NCBI RefSeq assembly: GCF_003254055.1 | Contig: NZ_QKZT01000012.1 | Location: 62,001-126,000 of the forward strand | Length of the DNA: 64,000 nt | Direction: 5' to 3' | Source: Algoriphagus chordae | GTDB taxonomy: Bacteria; Bacteroidota; Bacteroidia; Cytophagales; Cyclobacteriaceae | Shown: positions 38,346-60,874 of the stretch, one piece after another | Layout: the number at the start of each line of letters is the position of its first letter | Numbering within the stretch: the stretch's first letter is position 1 | Translations under genes and position numbers: made by a program | Notes under the pieces: generated by a model | The model's input: only the letters and a program-made list of their open reading frames with translations | What the model was told of the DNA's origin: nothing | The model's database searches: none

Positions 38346-39535
38346 AATATAGATACTTCTTAACCCTATGGGCATTTGCCAGTTTTTTTTCATGCTCATC
38401 TTCCGATAAAGTTGAACAAGACATTGATACCACGCTGTCTTACGAATGGCAATTAGTAGATTCTCTGGACTTGGAAATTCTTGGAAACCCTATGCTTACA
38501 GATGTCAATTCAGAAGGGTCCAAGTTGATGTTTTTTGACTCCCCCAGCAAAGAAATCATTACAACTGATGACCAAGGAGAGATAATCCACGCTTTTTCCA
38601 AAGAAGAGGACACTCCAGATGCCTATGGCTTCAAACTAGAATCCCCAGGATTTTATGGTGAAAATCAAATAACTGTCTATGGCATGAATGGCTTGTTTAT
38701 TTATGATTTGGATGGGACTATGCAACATAAAATCTCTCATCCTGAGTCATTAGGTGGCGCAAGCTCGATGAACTTTATTGGGAAATCCACCGAAACAGTA
38801 AAGTTTGGAAACCAGGTATACCTTCTTCCAAAATCTGTCCGTCCACGCAATTCCTTCCCTGGGCAACAGGAATTCTATGACAGCTATCGAGCAGTGGAAC
38901 TGGTGGATGTTCAAGCAGAATACATGACCGAAATGATTCCATTCGAAACAGGAAGTCACTTTCTAAATGGCAAAGGTTATATCGAGAGCGATTACAGTGC
39001 TGCCTACGAAGCCAAAGATGGAAAACTTTATTTTGTACACGGCGGAGATCCACAACTCTATGTGTACACTCTCTCTCCAGAGGAAGCAAAGCTTGATACT
39101 GTGATTCAGTTGGACATCCCCGGATTTATAATACCGGAAGGAAAAGATCGAGCCGAATTCCAGGAAGGACATGTAGAAATTAGAGGTGGCTCTGCGTCAA
39201 TTAGAAATATTCACATCTTGGACAATCTGCTTTTACTGAATTATTATTCTGGCAGGGATCCTCAACAATCTAAAGAAGCCGAAGCTTTATGGCTAGCGGG
39301 CAAAGAAGATGAGGCAAGAGCTCTTTATCAAAAAATTGAGGAAGAGACCCCGAAAGGCAATTTAATCTATAACTTGACTGACCTAAGTTATTTGGGAAAC
39401 GTCTCAGTTCCCGACAAAACCGGAGGAAGAACCTATGCCAGTGGAGGTGGATATGCATGGTTTCAAAAACTTCCCGATCCTGATGTAGAGGAAGATTTTT
39501 TAAGAATATATAAAATGAAACTAGCCTCAAAATGA
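38342..39535 (+). CDS. DUF4221-like lipoprotein, paralog 2 of 6
   Basis: A 397-residue lipoprotein with Cys18 (FFSCSSSD). It is clearly homologous to paralog 1 throughout: IDSLDLQMLGDPL against VDSLDLEILGNPM, HPESLGGASSM against HPETLGGGGFM, and the ending EEDFLRIYKMKL. Together the two form subgroup A. A propeller of antiparallel strands is likely, exposed either to the periplasm or on the surface. No catalytic motif stands out. The start ATG overlaps the previous stop by four bases (ATGA) and the stop overlaps paralog 3 the same way, so translation may be coupled. Confidence 0.85.
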   Translation: MKYRYFLTLWAFASFFSCSSSDKVEQDIDTTLSYEWQLVDSLDLEILGNPMLTDVNSEGSKLMFFDSPSKEIITTDDQGEIIHAFSKEEDTPDAYGFKLESPGFYGENQITVYGMNGLFIYDLDGTMQHKISHPESLGGASSMNFIGKSTETVKFGNQVYLLPKSVRPRNSFPGQQEFYDSYRAVELVDVQAEYMTEMIPFETGSHFLNGKGYIESDYSAAYEAKDGKLYFVHGGDPQLYVYTLSPEEAKLDTVIQLDIPGFIIPEGKDRAEFQEGHVEIRGGSASIRNIHILDNLLLLNYYSGRDPQQSKEAEALWLAGKEDEARALYQKIEEETPKGNLIYNLTDLSYLGNVSVPDKTGGRTYASGGGYAWFQKLPDPDVEEDFLRIYKMKLASK

Positions 39536-40674
39536 AATTCAGATACATTTTAACCACCCTACTAAGCTCCTATTTCTTTTCCTGCGCTTCACCCAATAAA
39601 ACGGAGGAGCTATCCACTCCTCAGGCTTCCAATGAATGGGAATTGCAAATCGTAGATTCTATTCAGGTAGATTATTTGGGTACGGTGGATGGAGCGGATT
39701 TCAAAAATAATGTTGGGGTTATATTCAACTTCAAAGAAAACAAACTGATCAAATTTGATGACTCAGGAAAAATTCTTAACGAACAATCCTATCCCAAGGA
39801 AGGACCGGGAAAAGTTCAGTATCCAACCCAAATCAAGATCCTTCAAGAAGGAGATATTTTGGCTGCAAGTTTCATGGGATGGCTCTATGAAATTAACTCT
39901 GACCTAAGCTTCAAAAAAGAGATTAAACTTGAATTCCCCACCGAAGCCAAAGATGGAGGAGGATTATTGAAAAACTTAGACGTTTGGAATGGGAAAATCA
40001 TTTCTTATTACCCTGGCCGTGATGGAGCCAACCCATATGATCCACATTTTTTTAGAGACCATTTCTTACTTGAAAAAATCGACGCAGAATCTGAGACCTC
40101 CGAGCCGATCATCAGGATACCAAAATCCTCCCGTTATTCCACAGATAAATATTACGAACGTCCATTTCTCAATTTTGTGATTTTGGAAAACCACCTCTAT
40201 CTAGCTTTAGACAATGAGCCATTGGTTCATGTGTATGATCTTTCTCAAAACAATGAATATTTACATACATATAACTTTGAGCCAACAAAATTTCTAGATA
40301 ATGGTGAGCACTCCAAACCCTATGAATACATTTCTTTTAGTAAAATGAGAGATGCTAATATCCAACAATTTTTTCCTACCAAACAGGGGATTTTTGTGCT
40401 CTATACAGAAGGTATTTCTGAAGAAATCTACCAACAATATGAATTAAAAGAGCCTAAAAACTTTCCTCTTCACAAGGACCATCAAAGACAGATTATAAAA
40501 ATTATAAATGCTGACTCCACACTTTCCAATGAAATCAATCTCTCCTACAGAATTGGAAGAATCCTAAACATAGAATCTCTTGACAAACCCTTTTACGCTT
40601 TGAGAGATGATGACTACATCGGTGAGGAGCAGGATTATTTGACTTTTTATAAACTTCGATTAGTTCAAAAATGA
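39532..40674 (+). CDS. DUF4221-like lipoprotein, paralog 3 of 6
   Basis: A 380-residue lipoprotein with Cys18 (FFSCASPN). It starts subgroup B with paralogs 4 and 5: all share NEWELQIVDSIQVDYLG, a central YPGRDG, RPxLNFVI near the middle and the end GEEQDYLTFYKL-L-LVQK. Its ending FYALRDDDYIGEEQDYLTF is nearly identical to paralogs 4 and 5. Fit to a propeller fold is inferred from the periodic strands only. Four-base overlaps join it to both neighbours. Confidence 0.85.
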   Translation: MKFRYILTTLLSSYFFSCASPNKTEELSTPQASNEWELQIVDSIQVDYLGTVDGADFKNNVGVIFNFKENKLIKFDDSGKILNEQSYPKEGPGKVQYPTQIKILQEGDILAASFMGWLYEINSDLSFKKEIKLEFPTEAKDGGGLLKNLDVWNGKIISYYPGRDGANPYDPHFFRDHFLLEKIDAESETSEPIIRIPKSSRYSTDKYYERPFLNFVILENHLYLALDNEPLVHVYDLSQNNEYLHTYNFEPTKFLDNGEHSKPYEYISFSKMRDANIQQFFPTKQGIFVLYTEGISEEIYQQYELKEPKNFPLHKDHQRQIIKIINADSTLSNEINLSYRIGRILNIESLDKPFYALRDDDYIGEEQDYLTFYKLRLVQK

Positions 40675-41807
40675 AATATATACTTTTACTAGCGCTTGCT
40701 GCAATTACATTATACTCTGCCTGCTCAGCACCGAAAAGTAACCCGGAGAACCAATCCATAAACTCCAATGAATGGGAGCTTCAGATCGTAGACTCTATTC
40801 AGGTGGACTATCTAGCAGATATTCGAGAAGGCATTTTTAACGATGGAGTAGGAATCATCAAGGACATCATGAGCACAACCTTGGTGAAGTTTGATTCGAC
40901 TGGTAATATTTTAGCTAAAAAAACTTATCCTAAAGAAGGCCCAGGAACAGTGATGTGGTTATCAACTTTACATCGACACAATGAGGTTATTTATGGATCC
41001 TCTTCATTCAACAATATATATAAATTTGATTCTGACCTCAATTCGATAGGAAGTCTTGAGATGCCATTTCCCGGTGAAGCAAGAGGTGGAGCATATAATA
41101 GAAGAAATATAGTAGTATGGAATAATAAAATACTCTTGTGGTACCCGGGACGTGACGGGATCAGCCCATACATTGACCATTTCTACCGAGATTATCCCCT
41201 ATTAGAATTGTATGACCTCAAAACCAATACTTCAAAAGCTGTAGTCCGTACTCCTCCTACATCCAAATACAATACAGATGACTTTTTTAACCGCCCGTAT
41301 TTAAATTTTGTCATTGAAAATGACAGTCTGTACCTGACTTTCACCAATGAGCCCCAGGTACATATATACGCGATGGGAGATAGCATTCAGTGGATCCGAA
41401 GTATGGATTTCATACCAGAGGATTTTAAGCTTATCCCAGGCCAAAAATCACCAGTTACTTATTCACAATCCATGCAAATGAATGAGGCGAGAATATATGG
41501 GATTTACTCAGACCCAAACCATATTATGATAACCTACAATGGAGGGATCGATGGTAACACATTTGTTAATAATGAATTAAAGGAGAAAGAAAATTTCTAT
41601 CGTTATCCAGAATTCAGGAAAGACTACCTCAAAATATATCAGTATGGGTTCGGCTGGTCAAATGAAATGATTATCCCTTCAAAAGTGAAGTTAATACTCA
41701 ATATAGAATCAGTAGACAAACCTTTCTACGCCCTCCGAAACGATGAATACATCGGCGAAGAACAAGATTATCTTACTTTTTATAAACTACAATTGGTACA
41801 AAAATGA
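40671..41807 (+). CDS. DUF4221-like lipoprotein, paralog 4 of 6
   Basis: A 378-residue lipoprotein with Cys18 (LYSACSAPK). It is closest to paralogs 3 and 5 and carries the subgroup B marks WELQIVDSIQVDYLA, YPGRDGISPYIDHF and FYALRNDEYIGEEQDYLTF. The middle third differs more, as expected if the blades face different partners. No signal for cell-surface export (acidic run right after Cys) is evident; the sequence after the lipid Cys is SAPKSNPENQ. Confidence 0.85.
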   Translation: MKYILLLALAAITLYSACSAPKSNPENQSINSNEWELQIVDSIQVDYLADIREGIFNDGVGIIKDIMSTTLVKFDSTGNILAKKTYPKEGPGTVMWLSTLHRHNEVIYGSSSFNNIYKFDSDLNSIGSLEMPFPGEARGGAYNRRNIVVWNNKILLWYPGRDGISPYIDHFYRDYPLLELYDLKTNTSKAVVRTPPTSKYNTDDFFNRPYLNFVIENDSLYLTFTNEPQVHIYAMGDSIQWIRSMDFIPEDFKLIPGQKSPVTYSQSMQMNEARIYGIYSDPNHIMITYNGGIDGNTFVNNELKEKENFYRYPEFRKDYLKIYQYGFGWSNEMIIPSKVKLILNIESVDKPFYALRNDEYIGEEQDYLTFYKLQLVQK

Positions 41808-42943
41808 AAAAGAACTATCTACTATTTTCATGCTCAATCCTGCTAGCTTTTTCCTGCTCTGCACCGAAAAACAACGAGGAAAATCAATCCTTAAACTCCA
41901 TCGTATGGGAACTTCAGATTCTAGACTCTATTCAGGTGGATTATTTGGGAAATATATCCACTGGAGATTTTAGTGAAGGAATAGGCTTGATCTATGACTA
42001 CACTGCCAATACCATAGTCAAAATCGATTATGACGGGAAAGTGCTCACTACCCAAACTTTCCCTAAAGACGGCCCAAACTCAATTTCTTTTATTTCCACT
42101 ATCAAAATTGATCCCGAAGGCAATCCTTTAATCAGTAACCACCATGGTCCTTTTTACAAATTAAACGGGGATCTTACGATTCAAAGAGAAATCGAAATGC
42201 CTTTCACATCCCCACCGATGGGAGGGTTGATGGATGATAAATCATTGGAATTCTGGCAGGAAAATATACTTCTCTACTATACAGGAAGAGATGATGTGGG
42301 ACCTTTTACTGAAAATTATTTAAAAGAATATTTTTTACTCGAAAAGCTAAACCCTACTACAGGAGAAAGCAGCCCATTAATCAGAACGCCCGAAACTTCA
42401 AAATTCAGTACTGGCAAGTTTTATGAAAGACCATCAATTTCATTTACCATATCTGAAAATGATCTATTGCTCTACTTCAACAACGAACCCAAAATCCACA
42501 GATTTAACCTGCTTGATTCGGGGAGCTTTATAGAAACCATAGATCTTAAGCCCACGAAATTTATCGAAGCTCCTGAATTGAAGGACAAATACGAAAACTA
42601 CAACTACGAAAAACTGGTGGAAGGCAATGTTTTTGGGGTTTTTGCAGAGGAGAATCAATTTGTAGTGCACTATTCCGAAGGAATCTCAGAAGAGATTTAT
42701 AGCACCCAAGAATTTGACTTCCCTAAGGACTTTCCAAAATTGATTGACCTAAACCAATCTTATCTCAAAGTTTATAACTCAGAAAAAGGATGGTCAAACG
42801 AGATTCCAATTCCTAAAAAAGTTTATAAGATCTTTGCAATGGAAGGTCTTAACCAGCCCTTTTTCGCGCTTAGAAATGATGAATACTTGGGCGAAGAGCA
42901 GGATTACTTGACTTTTTATAAACTACAATTGGTACAGAAATGA
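41804..42943 (+). CDS. DUF4221-like lipoprotein, paralog 5 of 6
   Basis: A 379-residue lipoprotein with Cys18 (LAFSCSAPKNN), the third member of subgroup B. Its first 40 and last 30 residues are almost the same as in paralog 4, while the central part (TGRDDVGPFTENYLKEYF, NNEPKIHRFNL) is diverged. This points to tandem duplication followed by change in the middle blades. It is joined to both neighbours by ATGA overlaps. Confidence 0.85.
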   Translation: MKKNYLLFSCSILLAFSCSAPKNNEENQSLNSIVWELQILDSIQVDYLGNISTGDFSEGIGLIYDYTANTIVKIDYDGKVLTTQTFPKDGPNSISFISTIKIDPEGNPLISNHHGPFYKLNGDLTIQREIEMPFTSPPMGGLMDDKSLEFWQENILLYYTGRDDVGPFTENYLKEYFLLEKLNPTTGESSPLIRTPETSKFSTGKFYERPSISFTISENDLLLYFNNEPKIHRFNLLDSGSFIETIDLKPTKFIEAPELKDKYENYNYEKLVEGNVFGVFAEENQFVVHYSEGISEEIYSTQEFDFPKDFPKLIDLNQSYLKVYNSEKGWSNEIPIPKKVYKIFAMEGLNQPFFALRNDEYLGEEQDYLTFYKLQLVQK

Positions 42944-44115
42944 AAAACCTCTACTACTTATACCTCCTCCCTTTTACACTCAGCATTTTTGCCTGCTCAG
43001 GCGAAAAAGAACAAACAGCATCATCCACTCCACTTTCAGAACAAGCGCTAGAATTTGAAATATATGATTCCCTAATAGTGGATTATCTAGGAAATCTCAC
43101 GCTGATGGACATTAGTCCAGATGGGAAATCCAATTTGCTAATAGACGAAAACACGGACTCTATTATAGTAGCAAATGATAAGGGAGAACAGCTTTATCAG
43201 TACAAACTGAGGGGTGAAGGCCCGAACCAATATCAGGCGAATCGATACGGAAAAAGCAAGTTTCTAACCAATAATGAGTTTCTAATCCCTACTACTGGTG
43301 GCGTCTATAAGTATGATTTGGAAGGCAAATTGCAGAAAAAATACGAACCTGATTTTTCTGCTATGGCACAAATCATTATTGGTGGTGCCGATAATTTATT
43401 TATCAAAGGTGATCAACTTTACCTTAATCTACCTGGACGTGGCAGAGATGAATTTGGCAGTCAGGGAATTGATTATCAAAAAAAATCCAAGCATATAGAG
43501 ATTCTAGACCTGCAGTCTGAGACCTATACGGCGGCTGTTCCATTTCCTGCCAGTTCCAAGTTTAGTAGTGAAGAAAATGCCTATAAATTCTTTTCTTTCT
43601 ATCCCGCGATTTCTCTCGGAAAGGATAGTCTATATATAGCTTATAGACATGAACCTAAGATTTTTGCGTATCCACTCTCAGACCTGAATTCTTTAGGTTC
43701 TACCAAGTTCATTCCCTTCCCCGCTTTTGTTGAAAATGAGCCTAAAGGCAAGGAGGTCAATAATAACATAGTAATAAGTGAACTCTATGCTGGCACGATC
43801 AATAAAATCATTGCGATGGAAGATGGCCTGTTTATAGTGGATTATCTTGCTGGATTGACGAGTGAGGAGTATGAGGAAGCAGTGGCCAAAGCTGATGGAG
43901 ATATGGACAAACAATGGGAGGTATTGGGAGAAAGTAACCAAGGAGGCATGGTCATTTTCAACGGCACAGAAATCAGTTCTCCCATCCAAAAACCTGAAAT
44001 CCTGGGCAACTTAAACAAATACATCTCTAAGGATGAAATCTGGTTTTCACTTAATTTCTCTGAAGCCGAAAATGACTATTCGGTGATTTACAAGACACGA
44101 TTAATCTCCAAATGA
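42940..44115 (+). CDS. DUF4221-like lipoprotein, paralog 6 of 6
   Basis: A 391-residue lipoprotein with Cys19 (SIFACSGEKE), the last of the array. It keeps the family start EIYDSLIVDYLGNLTLMDIS and the motif RHEPKIFAYPL at the place where others have N/G-E-P-x-x-H-x-Y, but its ending (NDYSVIYKTRLISK) and middle are its own, so it forms a third subgroup. It has a YKLIR-like charged region GEGPNQYQANRYGKSKF recalling GEGPGE motifs of 6-bladed propeller lipoproteins. The operon ends with a two-way terminator. Confidence 0.83.
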   Translation: MKNLYYLYLLPFTLSIFACSGEKEQTASSTPLSEQALEFEIYDSLIVDYLGNLTLMDISPDGKSNLLIDENTDSIIVANDKGEQLYQYKLRGEGPNQYQANRYGKSKFLTNNEFLIPTTGGVYKYDLEGKLQKKYEPDFSAMAQIIIGGADNLFIKGDQLYLNLPGRGRDEFGSQGIDYQKKSKHIEILDLQSETYTAAVPFPASSKFSSEENAYKFFSFYPAISLGKDSLYIAYRHEPKIFAYPLSDLNSLGSTKFIPFPAFVENEPKGKEVNNNIVISELYAGTINKIIAMEDGLFIVDYLAGLTSEEYEEAVAKADGDMDKQWEVLGESNQGGMVIFNGTEISSPIQKPEILGNLNKYISKDEIWFSLNFSEAENDYSVIYKTRLISK

Positions 44116-59603: not shown

Positions 59604-59936
59604 TAGCGCTGTACCTGACGGCACAGCCAAGAATCATTTCTTAAACAATTTTTCTATCTATAGTTAGCCCCCAACGGGGCAACTCTAAGTATGAATAATT
59701 TTAGAAATTGCTCATAGGAAAATTCTTGAATCTGATTCGCACACATTCACCACCTATAATATACCTCCTCGAGAGGTAAAGCAATCTATAACTAACATAA
59801 AAGGGGTATGATCGAGAAAACATAAGATCAATTTAAAAACCTTCATTTTACACCACCCGAAACTTAGTCCCGCTAGGGACCTACTAGGGGTAGAATTATT
59901 AATAAACAGGGCACCAGCCGTGCCGTCAGGTACGGC
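59604..59936. repeat. REP-bounded module, copy 1
   Basis: The ends are two REP-like hairpins in opposite orientation: GCTGTACC-TGAC-GGCACAGC at 59608-59627 and GCCGTGCC-GTCA-GGTACGGC at 59917-59936. Inside are three more small hairpins: GCCCC-CAAC-GGGGC (59667-59680), TACCTC-CTCGA-GAGGTA (59762-59778) and GTCCC-GCTA-GGGAC (59867-59880). The same order recurs in copy 2. The whole intergenic stretch from comM to the transposase is otherwise empty. Confidence 0.85.
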
Positions 59937-59952
59937 ACTAAATTTTTCAAGC

Positions 59953-60414
59953 ATGGCAAATACCTACACACAGATTCATATTCAAGCAGTCTTTGCTGTT
60001 CAAAATAGAATCTCATTGATCCATCCGACATGGAAGAACGAATTGTATAAATACATTTCTTCTATAGTTTCAAAATATGATCACAAAGTCTTGCAGATAA
60101 ACGGCATGCCAGATCATGTGCATTTATTGATGGGATTTCGACCTACACAGGCTCTTTCTGACTTAATGAAAGAATTGAAAGAAGATTCATCCAAATGGAT
60201 TAATACTCGAGGGTTTGTGAAGAGAAAATTTGCTTGGCAAGCTGGATATGGAGCATTTTCATATAGTAAAAACCAAGTCCCAAGGTTAATTCGATATATC
60301 CAAAATCAAGAAGAACACCATAAAAGGCAGTGCTTTTTGGATGAATATGAAGAACTATTGAAAATCCATGAAATTGAATACGATCAACGCTACATTTTCA
60401 AAGCGATAGACTAG
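59953..60414 (+). CDS. REP-associated tyrosine transposase (IS200/IS605-like TnpA)
   Basis: A 153-residue HUH/Y1 enzyme. The metal-binding pair is His55 and His57 in GMPDHVHLLMG, and the nucleophile Tyr115 lies in RYIQNQEEHH, with Gln119 in the usual next position. The start chosen is ATG 59953, where the IS200/IS605 N-terminus begins (TYTQIHIQAVFAV); a longer frame runs from inside the REP hairpin. It is bracketed by two REP-bounded modules, as REP-associated transposases (RAYTs) are, and its stop codon TAG is the first three bases of module 2. By family it cuts and joins single-stranded DNA at REP hairpins. Confidence 0.92.
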   Translation: MANTYTQIHIQAVFAVQNRISLIHPTWKNELYKYISSIVSKYDHKVLQINGMPDHVHLLMGFRPTQALSDLMKELKEDSSKWINTRGFVKRKFAWQAGYGAFSYSKNQVPRLIRYIQNQEEHHKRQCFLDEYEELLKIHEIEYDQRYIFKAID

Positions 60415-60743
60415 CGCTGTACCTAACGGCACAGCCAAGAATCATTTCTTAAACAATTATTCTACCAATAGTTAGCCCCTAACGGGGCAACTCTAAGTAT
60501 GAATAATTTTAGAAATTGCTCAATGGAAAATTCTTGAATCTGATTCGCACACATTCACCACCTATAATATACCTCCTCGAGAGGTAAAGCAATAAAAATT
60601 ACCATACAAGGAATATGATTGAGACAACATAAGATCAATTTCAAAACCTTTATTTTACACTACCCCAAACCTAGTCCCGCTAGGGACCAACTTTAGGTAG
60701 AATCATTAATAAATAGGATACCAGCCGTGCCGTTAGGTACGGC
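60412..60743. repeat. REP-bounded module, copy 2
   Basis: This is a near-identical copy of 59604-59936. Its end hairpins are GCTGTACC-TAAC-GGCACAGC (60416-60435) and GCCGTGCC-GTTA-GGTACGGC (60724-60743). The loops differ from copy 1 (TAAC and GTTA instead of TGAC and GTCA), but the two ends of each module agree with one another. The intergenic stretch to 60874 shows nothing more. Confidence 0.85.
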
Positions 60744-60874
60744 TCTATATAAATTCAGACCATTTATCTTTTGGCTAATGATCATCAAAGGTATTTTGGA
60801 TAGTCTAACCAAATTTCCCTTTAAGCCTGTTATTCAGTATATTCCACAACTGAATTCAACAAACAAATCATTCG

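Follow-up and report, generated by a model that had tools for sequence, protein, structure and literature searches.

A probable REPtron-like locus of TnpA-Y1 subclass 1.2 in Algoriphagus chordae, with the transposase gene in the centre of a REPIN

In REPtrons, such as those of E. coli group 2.2, the gene of a REP-associated tyrosine transposase (RAYT, or TnpA-REP) is flanked by inverted repetitive extragenic palindromic (REP) sequences whose hairpins have a mismatch bulge, and every tnpA goes with a REP type of its own; the associated bacterial interspersed mosaic elements (BIMEs) are often tandem, as far as the relevant sections of two accounts describe them (PMC8266576, PMC6006769). For Pseudomonas fluorescens SBW25, the sections of PMC3116915 on REP doublets forming hairpins (REPINs) describe gene-less inverted doublets in tandem clusters, with a cluster beside each cognate RAYT. 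For TnpA-Y1 subclass 1.2, Quentin et al. (2018; PMC6006769) give the motifs DH[IV]H, WQ and Y---Q--HH, a low copy number and an occurrence in Bacteroidetes and Cyanobacteria; their table carries the entry 'no' under REP, and the automatic REP search described there required the foot of the hairpin to read GTAG or GTGG. Our literature search, in one library, found no report of REPs for this subclass. Here we describe a tnpA locus in 64,000 nt of Algoriphagus chordae (contig NZ_QKZT01000012.1, positions 62,001 to 126,000; hereafter the window) that appears to have a conserved repeat family of its own and to constitute a REPIN system of this reportedly REP-less subclass, the gene occupying the REPIN centre. 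Coordinates are positions in the window, where the locus of interest occupies 59604-60750; G, C and L handles denote genomes, contigs and loci.

As a whole, the locus is probably best explained as REPtron-like: a tnpA of subclass 1.2 fills the centre of a REPIN, the same REPIN occurs gene-less in the genus, and TnpA would mobilise it. The gene (59953..60414, + strand; ATG at 59953, TAG stop at 60412-60414) encodes the 153-residue HUH/Y1 transposase predicted by a first-pass annotation made from the sequence alone. The proposed element, B'A'-tnpA-AB (59867..60488, +), is a REPIN with the gene as its centre, and is based on the pair geometry of 122 model matches and on like-placed ends in other genera. 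The upstream double-hairpin end (59867..59940, - strand; A' 59917-59936, B' 59867-59880; 80.5 bits with the covariance model R1) stops 12 nt short of the ATG, and the downstream end (60412..60488, + strand; A 60416-60435, B 60475-60488; 79.1 bits) has the tnpA stop codon as its first bases. The annotation had already seen that the downstream repeat module opens with the three bases of the TAG stop (60412-60414); this overlap recurs in G020, G069, G028 and a remnant in G056, but is mostly a lineage trait, as in the wider set described below it holds for 3 of 41 loci. Read from sequence, the arrangement is inverted REP (iREP)-tnpA-REP at the locus and iREP-~16 nt-REP, without the gene, in genus genomes.

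The phase of the REPIN is determined from how the ends pair. R1 was built from genus sequences only and applied to 72 genus genomes with strict filters, under which weak ends may be missed; it finds 122 ends in 25 of these genomes. Neighbouring ends on the same contig whose TAG sides face each other are separated by 9, 12, 15 (five pairs), 16 (four), 18 (three), 47, 93 or 471-499 bp (11 pairs). All 11 pairs in the last class contain a tnpA match, and the 14 pairs at 9-18 bp are gene-less units, with a sharp boundary at hairpin B, at eight sites (distinguished by flanks) in nine genomes; the gaps of 47 and 93 are two odd cases. Since TAG-facing pairs lie either 9-18 bp apart without a gene or 471-499 bp apart with tnpA inside, the gene, judged by this geometry, sits in the place of the ~16-nt REPIN centre, and what lies between successive REPINs of an array is the module. 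The 11 B-facing (module-phase) pairs, with gaps of 87-293, all belong either to a tnpA locus or to the orthologous site downstream of yifB, and on this pair geometry we reject the idea that the 340-bp module is what moves; further ends form seven same-direction pairs or are single (42 ends). The first-pass annotation had taken the long module itself as the REPIN unit, and this has to be given up, as the 14 units away from tnpA have TAG ends that face each other across 9-18 bp. Two inverted REPs thus form a gene-less repeated unit as in REPINs and BIMEs, although with at most 19 ends per genome the high copy number of those elements is not reached. The REPIN centres were also compared by eye with the ends of tnpA as possible remnants, and nothing convincing was seen.

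Each end is about 75 nt long and consists of TAG-N, hairpin A, ~25 nt, CTACCCATAG plus a few bases, and hairpin B. Hairpin A has 5 bp, an A.C mismatch, 2 bp and a loop of 4, and hairpin B has 5 bp. The foot of hairpin A is TAG-N, or TAT in many other genera, and not the GT[AG]G of class 2. Among 25 ends, 97.3% of cells pair, and a two-sided change is found in 19 cells compared with 8.3 in shuffles. In ends from other loci (49 of the 80 in the wider set; 159 matches, of which the best 150 were aligned and 141 are distinct), 9 of 12 pairs have two-sided changes, in 146 cells compared with 36.3 when shuffled, in an alignment that was fitted to the model and therefore favours the structure. Such compensatory changes fit DNA and RNA folding equally and are not decisive between the two. 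A search of Rfam gave one match, far below the gathering score (18.9 vs 50). Because the earlier automatic search required a GTAG or GTGG foot, the REPs of subclass 1.2, with TAG-N or TAT instead, may have been missed.

Structurally recurring ends stand, by sequence comparison, beside relatives of TnpA in many Bacteroidota. The wider set comprises the best 80 tnpA loci, nearly all from Bacteroidota by record title (the few others include L074, L105 and two Balneolaceae), and R1 gives 240 matches over them. An R1 end lies within 50 nt of tnpA upstream in 42 loci, downstream in 41, on both sides in 30 and on either side in 53 (29 and 52 of 79, respectively, when L049, the source of training ends, is left out), so the reported lack of REP-like flanks in subclass 1.2 does not apply to these 53 loci. 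In the 72 genus genomes, R1 matches occur in all 11 with a tnpA at least 60% identical, compared with 14 of 61 others (Fisher p 1.5e-6, for related species that are not independent); seven of the 11 had contributed nothing to the training of R1 (for these, p 1.2e-4). By both counts, 11/11 vs 14/61 genomes and 53/80 loci, tnpA is flanked by its own cognate REP type, as in a REPtron.

The flanks were also compared without the model, at 70 of the 80 loci (10 were dropped for short flanks) and at 33 of 34 genus loci. Inverted arms are found beside tnpA in 36/70 loci and at 0/51 control sites without tnpA, and direct repeats passing a strict threshold (at least 50 nt and 60 bits) in 28/70; 48/70 have either type. 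Since three controls for direct repeats gave 1/51, 2/38 and 4/165, chance alone does not account for the flanking arrangement. An initial test of the flanks, at E 1e-3, proved too permissive (40/80 loci; cross-locus control 52/259, shifted control 7/64) and was replaced by the strict test. The cross-locus control for inverted arms gave 79/300, which we read as showing that the arms are related between loci. For the 33 genus loci the figures are 16 with inverted arms, 15 with direct repeats and 21 with either; note that the genus set overlaps the 80, with the same figures for gL142, gL144 and gL148 as for L049, L052 and L056. Within 200 nt of tnpA there are 2.6 and 3.2 perfect hairpins per kb, compared with ~0.3 in shuffles, and at the genus loci 2.9 and 5.4 per kb, compared with 0.35 at control sites. 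Both flanks have hairpins within 300 nt at 19/70 loci and 13/33 genus loci, and at 0/52 control sites.

By its motifs, TnpA belongs to TnpA-Y1 subclass 1.2. The residues concerned are D54-H55-V56-H57, W95-Q96 and Y115...Q119..H122-H123. Across 54 sequences chosen for alignment, D54, H55, H57, W95 and Q96 are invariant, in agreement with DH[IV]H and WQ, and so are Y115, Q119, H122 and H123, which make up Y---Q--HH. Among 114 sequences, the HUH motif (pattern DH[IVLF]H) and the WQ motif are each present in 109, and Y---Q--HH in 104, with exceptions that include broken frames and at least four real variants. For the specific ~30-aa C-terminal domain described for the subclass, the comparison covered residue conservation in the 54 sequences, where residues 124-153 are partly conserved (E131 and L136 invariant, F128 and Y132 in at least 90%). 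Where class 2 RAYTs (TnpA-REP) have Y---NP, TnpA has Y115...Q119. The first-pass comparison with RAYT loci is apt for the REPtron- or REPIN-like arrangement of hairpins in inverted pairs, but not for the protein. Copy number is low, as in the published subclass, with tnpA matches in 54 of the 72 genus genomes at 1-9 each.

In profile searches, TnpA matches Pfam Y1_Tnp at E 6.5e-28, scores above the cut-off of the NCBIfam IS200/IS605 model (66.9 vs 55) and below that of REP_Tyr_transpos (34.4 vs 80). The AlphaFold model (mean predicted local distance difference test score, pLDDT, 93.7) has a predicted fold that matches both IS200-type TnpA and E. coli TnpA-REP. Its best structural match is ISDra2, at 24% identity; it aligns with DR_0177 (2fyx) over 120 residues (Z 12.9) and with TnpA-REP 4er8 over 126 residues (Z 10.3), and with IS608/ISDra2 the core alone aligns (104-108 residues, Z ~12). 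We make no claim about a cis placement of the tyrosine helix, since the alignment pattern may stem from monomer modelling.

At the locus itself, the REPIN is part of a direct-repeat array. Module 1 (A-B-spacer-B'-A', 59604..59943) and module 2 (60412..60750) are 90% identical over 340 nt, with blocks 59604-59785/60412-60593 at 96% and 59790-59943/60597-60750 at 85%. The two flanking modules of ~330 bp in the first-pass annotation thus exist, at ~340 bp, but 'near-identical' was generous; likewise, the inverted hairpins that it placed at the module ends are present, but with two hairpins per end and not one. The arms of these ends (59604-59627/59917-59940 and 60412-60435/60724-60747) are 24 nt long and 88% complementary, and each module folds as a single strand more strongly than 100 of 100 shuffles (z -5.4, -6.9). 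The outer left end (59604..59680, + strand; A 59608-59627, B 59667-59680; 72.9 bits) is half of another REPIN in the array, and the outer right end (60674..60747, - strand; A' 60724-60743, B' 60674-60687) scores 82.4 bits. The gene preceding tnpA we take to be a Mg-chelatase-like ATPase (yifB/ComM), and the one following presumably a metallo-hydrolase-like open reading frame (ORF). In Aquiflexum (L050), three tandem tnpA genes show no difference over 459 nt, and their units are 98-100% alike, an arrangement that reads as (module-tnpA)x3. Upstream of a Salinimicrobium tnpA (L068 1624-2988), thirteen double hairpins in the same direction were seen with a period of ~106 bp, in a different array phase. 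Elsewhere in the window, some repeat is present at 39000-43560, where two adjacent control placements (39000 and 40500) exceeded the strict threshold for direct repeats.

The site downstream of yifB was compared in 61 genomes (60 and the window, excluding G045 at 74% identity). R1 ends (E 0.05) are found there in 13, with weak ends (24-32 bits) in G008 and G009, and in none of the other 48. A full tnpA occupies the site in the window, G020, G069, G028 and G009, and fragments of it are found in G056 and G008; G013, G003, G029, G007, G038 and G042 have a module or part of one without tnpA, among them solo modules in G013 and G003 and a degenerate one in G029. In G070 (L182), an inserted ORF, of restriction-endonuclease type by eye, was seen where others have the module. 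Modules 1 and 2 are 90.6% identical within G000, the window's genome, 83.8% within G020 and 78.6% within G069, compared with 63-67% between these genomes, and module sites group by species rather than by position in ratios of 54:1, 47:0 and 40:0. Because they do so, we conclude that repeats within one locus are homogenised. At a second site (G006:C22), a full REPIN is present in G006, G028, G020 and, by its left flank, G003, a lone B hairpin in G007 and G070, and nothing in G000, G069, G038 and G042. The two lone hairpins (L284, L288) look as if the stretch between two palindromic B hairpins had been lost.

The window's genome contains relatives of the gene and of its ends. A search with TnpA gives six matches, namely five full-length paralogues (C12, C2, C16, C19, C5) and one fragment, and Pfam adds two weaker Y1 matches (C26, C29). 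Each full-length paralogue has its own flanking direct repeats, hairpin-rich by eye; the flanks (700 nt each side) of these five show no mutual match at E 1e-3 in any of the 10 pairs. The C2 module has 13 matches, all within ~3.2 kb around its gene, and the C16 module six, all within ~4.2 kb of contig around its gene. Paralogue C2 (G000:C2:208776-211974, L024) has a tandem array of ~232-bp multi-hairpin modules and a duplicated tnpA 3' fragment. Gene-less copies, for which the first-pass annotation had proposed a search, exist in this genome and in relatives. It had also named what would speak against it, two copies only and no mobility between strains; the genome has further gene-less ends at C36, C2 and C26, and relatives differ in presence at common sites.

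As a mechanism, TnpA would bind single-stranded DNA at hairpins A and B, probably on the lagging-strand template. Since its HUH, Gln and Tyr residues and its predicted fold match IS200/IS605 TnpA, Tyr115 is expected to cut and join single-stranded DNA beside the hairpins, by analogy with IS608 and TnpA-REP as treated in part of PMC8266576. TnpA may thereby move small gene-less REPINs in trans, and tandem arrays and deletions could arise where the direct repeats recombine or the template is switched between them. We infer mobilisation mainly from the cognate link (11/11 vs 14/61), which kinship among the species weakens. A bolder proposal, which we hold tentatively and would rather doubt than assert, is that subclass 1.2 is a living intermediate between insertion sequences (IS) and RAYT/REPIN systems: a single genus contains both B'A'-tnpA-AB and the emptied B'A'-16 nt-AB, which share their double-hairpin ends, and TnpA would still amplify the module-tnpA unit in tandem and gene-less units in trans.

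Alternatively, the locus may be domesticated, with hairpins that act mainly on RNA, holding down or stabilising the tnpA transcript, and with repeats that are passive by-products and no longer mobilised. The position of A', 12 nt before the ATG, and of A, which starts at the stop codon, is in line with this, as are gene-less units that often share a site in several species and the paralogue families C2 and C16 that stay local; we nevertheless consider it unlikely, because the 14 gene-less units have no tnpA transcript to regulate. If module-tnpA-module moved whole, like an element with long terminal repeats (LTRs), the solo modules in G013 and G003 and the degenerate one in G029 would be remnants akin to solo LTRs. 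Similarly, C26:36004 of the window's genome aligns on both sides with the A. ratkowskyi element site (L049) and lacks the module-tnpA unit, with a further ~1 kb length difference upstream. However, no module-phase pair was found away from tnpA loci and the yifB site, homogenisation at one orthologous site makes new insertions unnecessary, and a crossover between modules 1 and 2 in the G013 solo module is suggestive only (two-block p 0.05, runs p 0.12), so that this reading is quite improbable. Very improbable is an ordinary IS200-type insertion sequence whose modules are duplicated flanking DNA. It would account for the NCBIfam match above cut-off and for a tnpA between inverted hairpins, but the closest paralogue in the same genome is 50% identical, where a multi-copy IS has near-identical copies; moreover, all five full-length paralogues have their own direct repeats, the ends also form gene-less REPINs, and the two modules evolve in concert.

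Several observations weigh against the REPtron-like explanation that we prefer. No R1 end lies within 50 nt of tnpA in 27 of the 80 loci, and 22 of 70 have neither type of flanking repeat. The C2 and C16 families are confined to their own loci, and among the three families searched dispersal is seen for the window's alone. Genomes rich in ends can be without a cognate tnpA, such as G003 (19 ends, best tnpA 52%) and G007 (six ends, no match at E 1e-15); these may reflect gene loss after spread, or another source. Three of the eight gene-less sites are shared across species (G006/G020/G028/G003; G000/G028/G007; probably G029/G069), and they do not prove recent movement. Copy numbers are low, the filters of the 72-genome search were strict, and the E-values of R1 are approximate. 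Binding, cutting and transposition by TnpA are predictions by analogy.

How REPINs and domesticated RAYT transposases originated is an open question, and units with and without the gene that share their ends within one genus bear on it. With a class-1 (IS200-like) enzyme that has such ends, the question is testable with one enzyme and short oligonucleotides. If the intermediate proposal were true, it would give a direct view of how REPINs arose from an IS-like ancestor. In addition, R1 is a structured signal for finding such loci across Bacteroidota.

Compared with the REPtrons of E. coli group 2.2, with which it shares the inverted, bulged REPs and the cognate REP type, this locus has a class 1 enzyme (Y---Q--HH) instead of Y---NP, a double-hairpin REP with a TAG-N or TAT foot instead of GT[AG]G, a low copy number and a gene exactly at the REPIN centre. 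As in SBW25, there are gene-less inverted doublets, but the unit here is ~160 bp with four hairpins, at no more than 19 ends per genome; the SBW25 genome carries many more REPIN ends. The HUH/Y1 fold and a gene between inverted hairpins are shared with IS200/IS605 elements (IS608, ISDra2), which differ in being multi-copy, whereas here arrays of cognate repeats and gene-less units are found. From TnpA-Y1 subclass 1.2 as published, the locus differs in its conserved ends.
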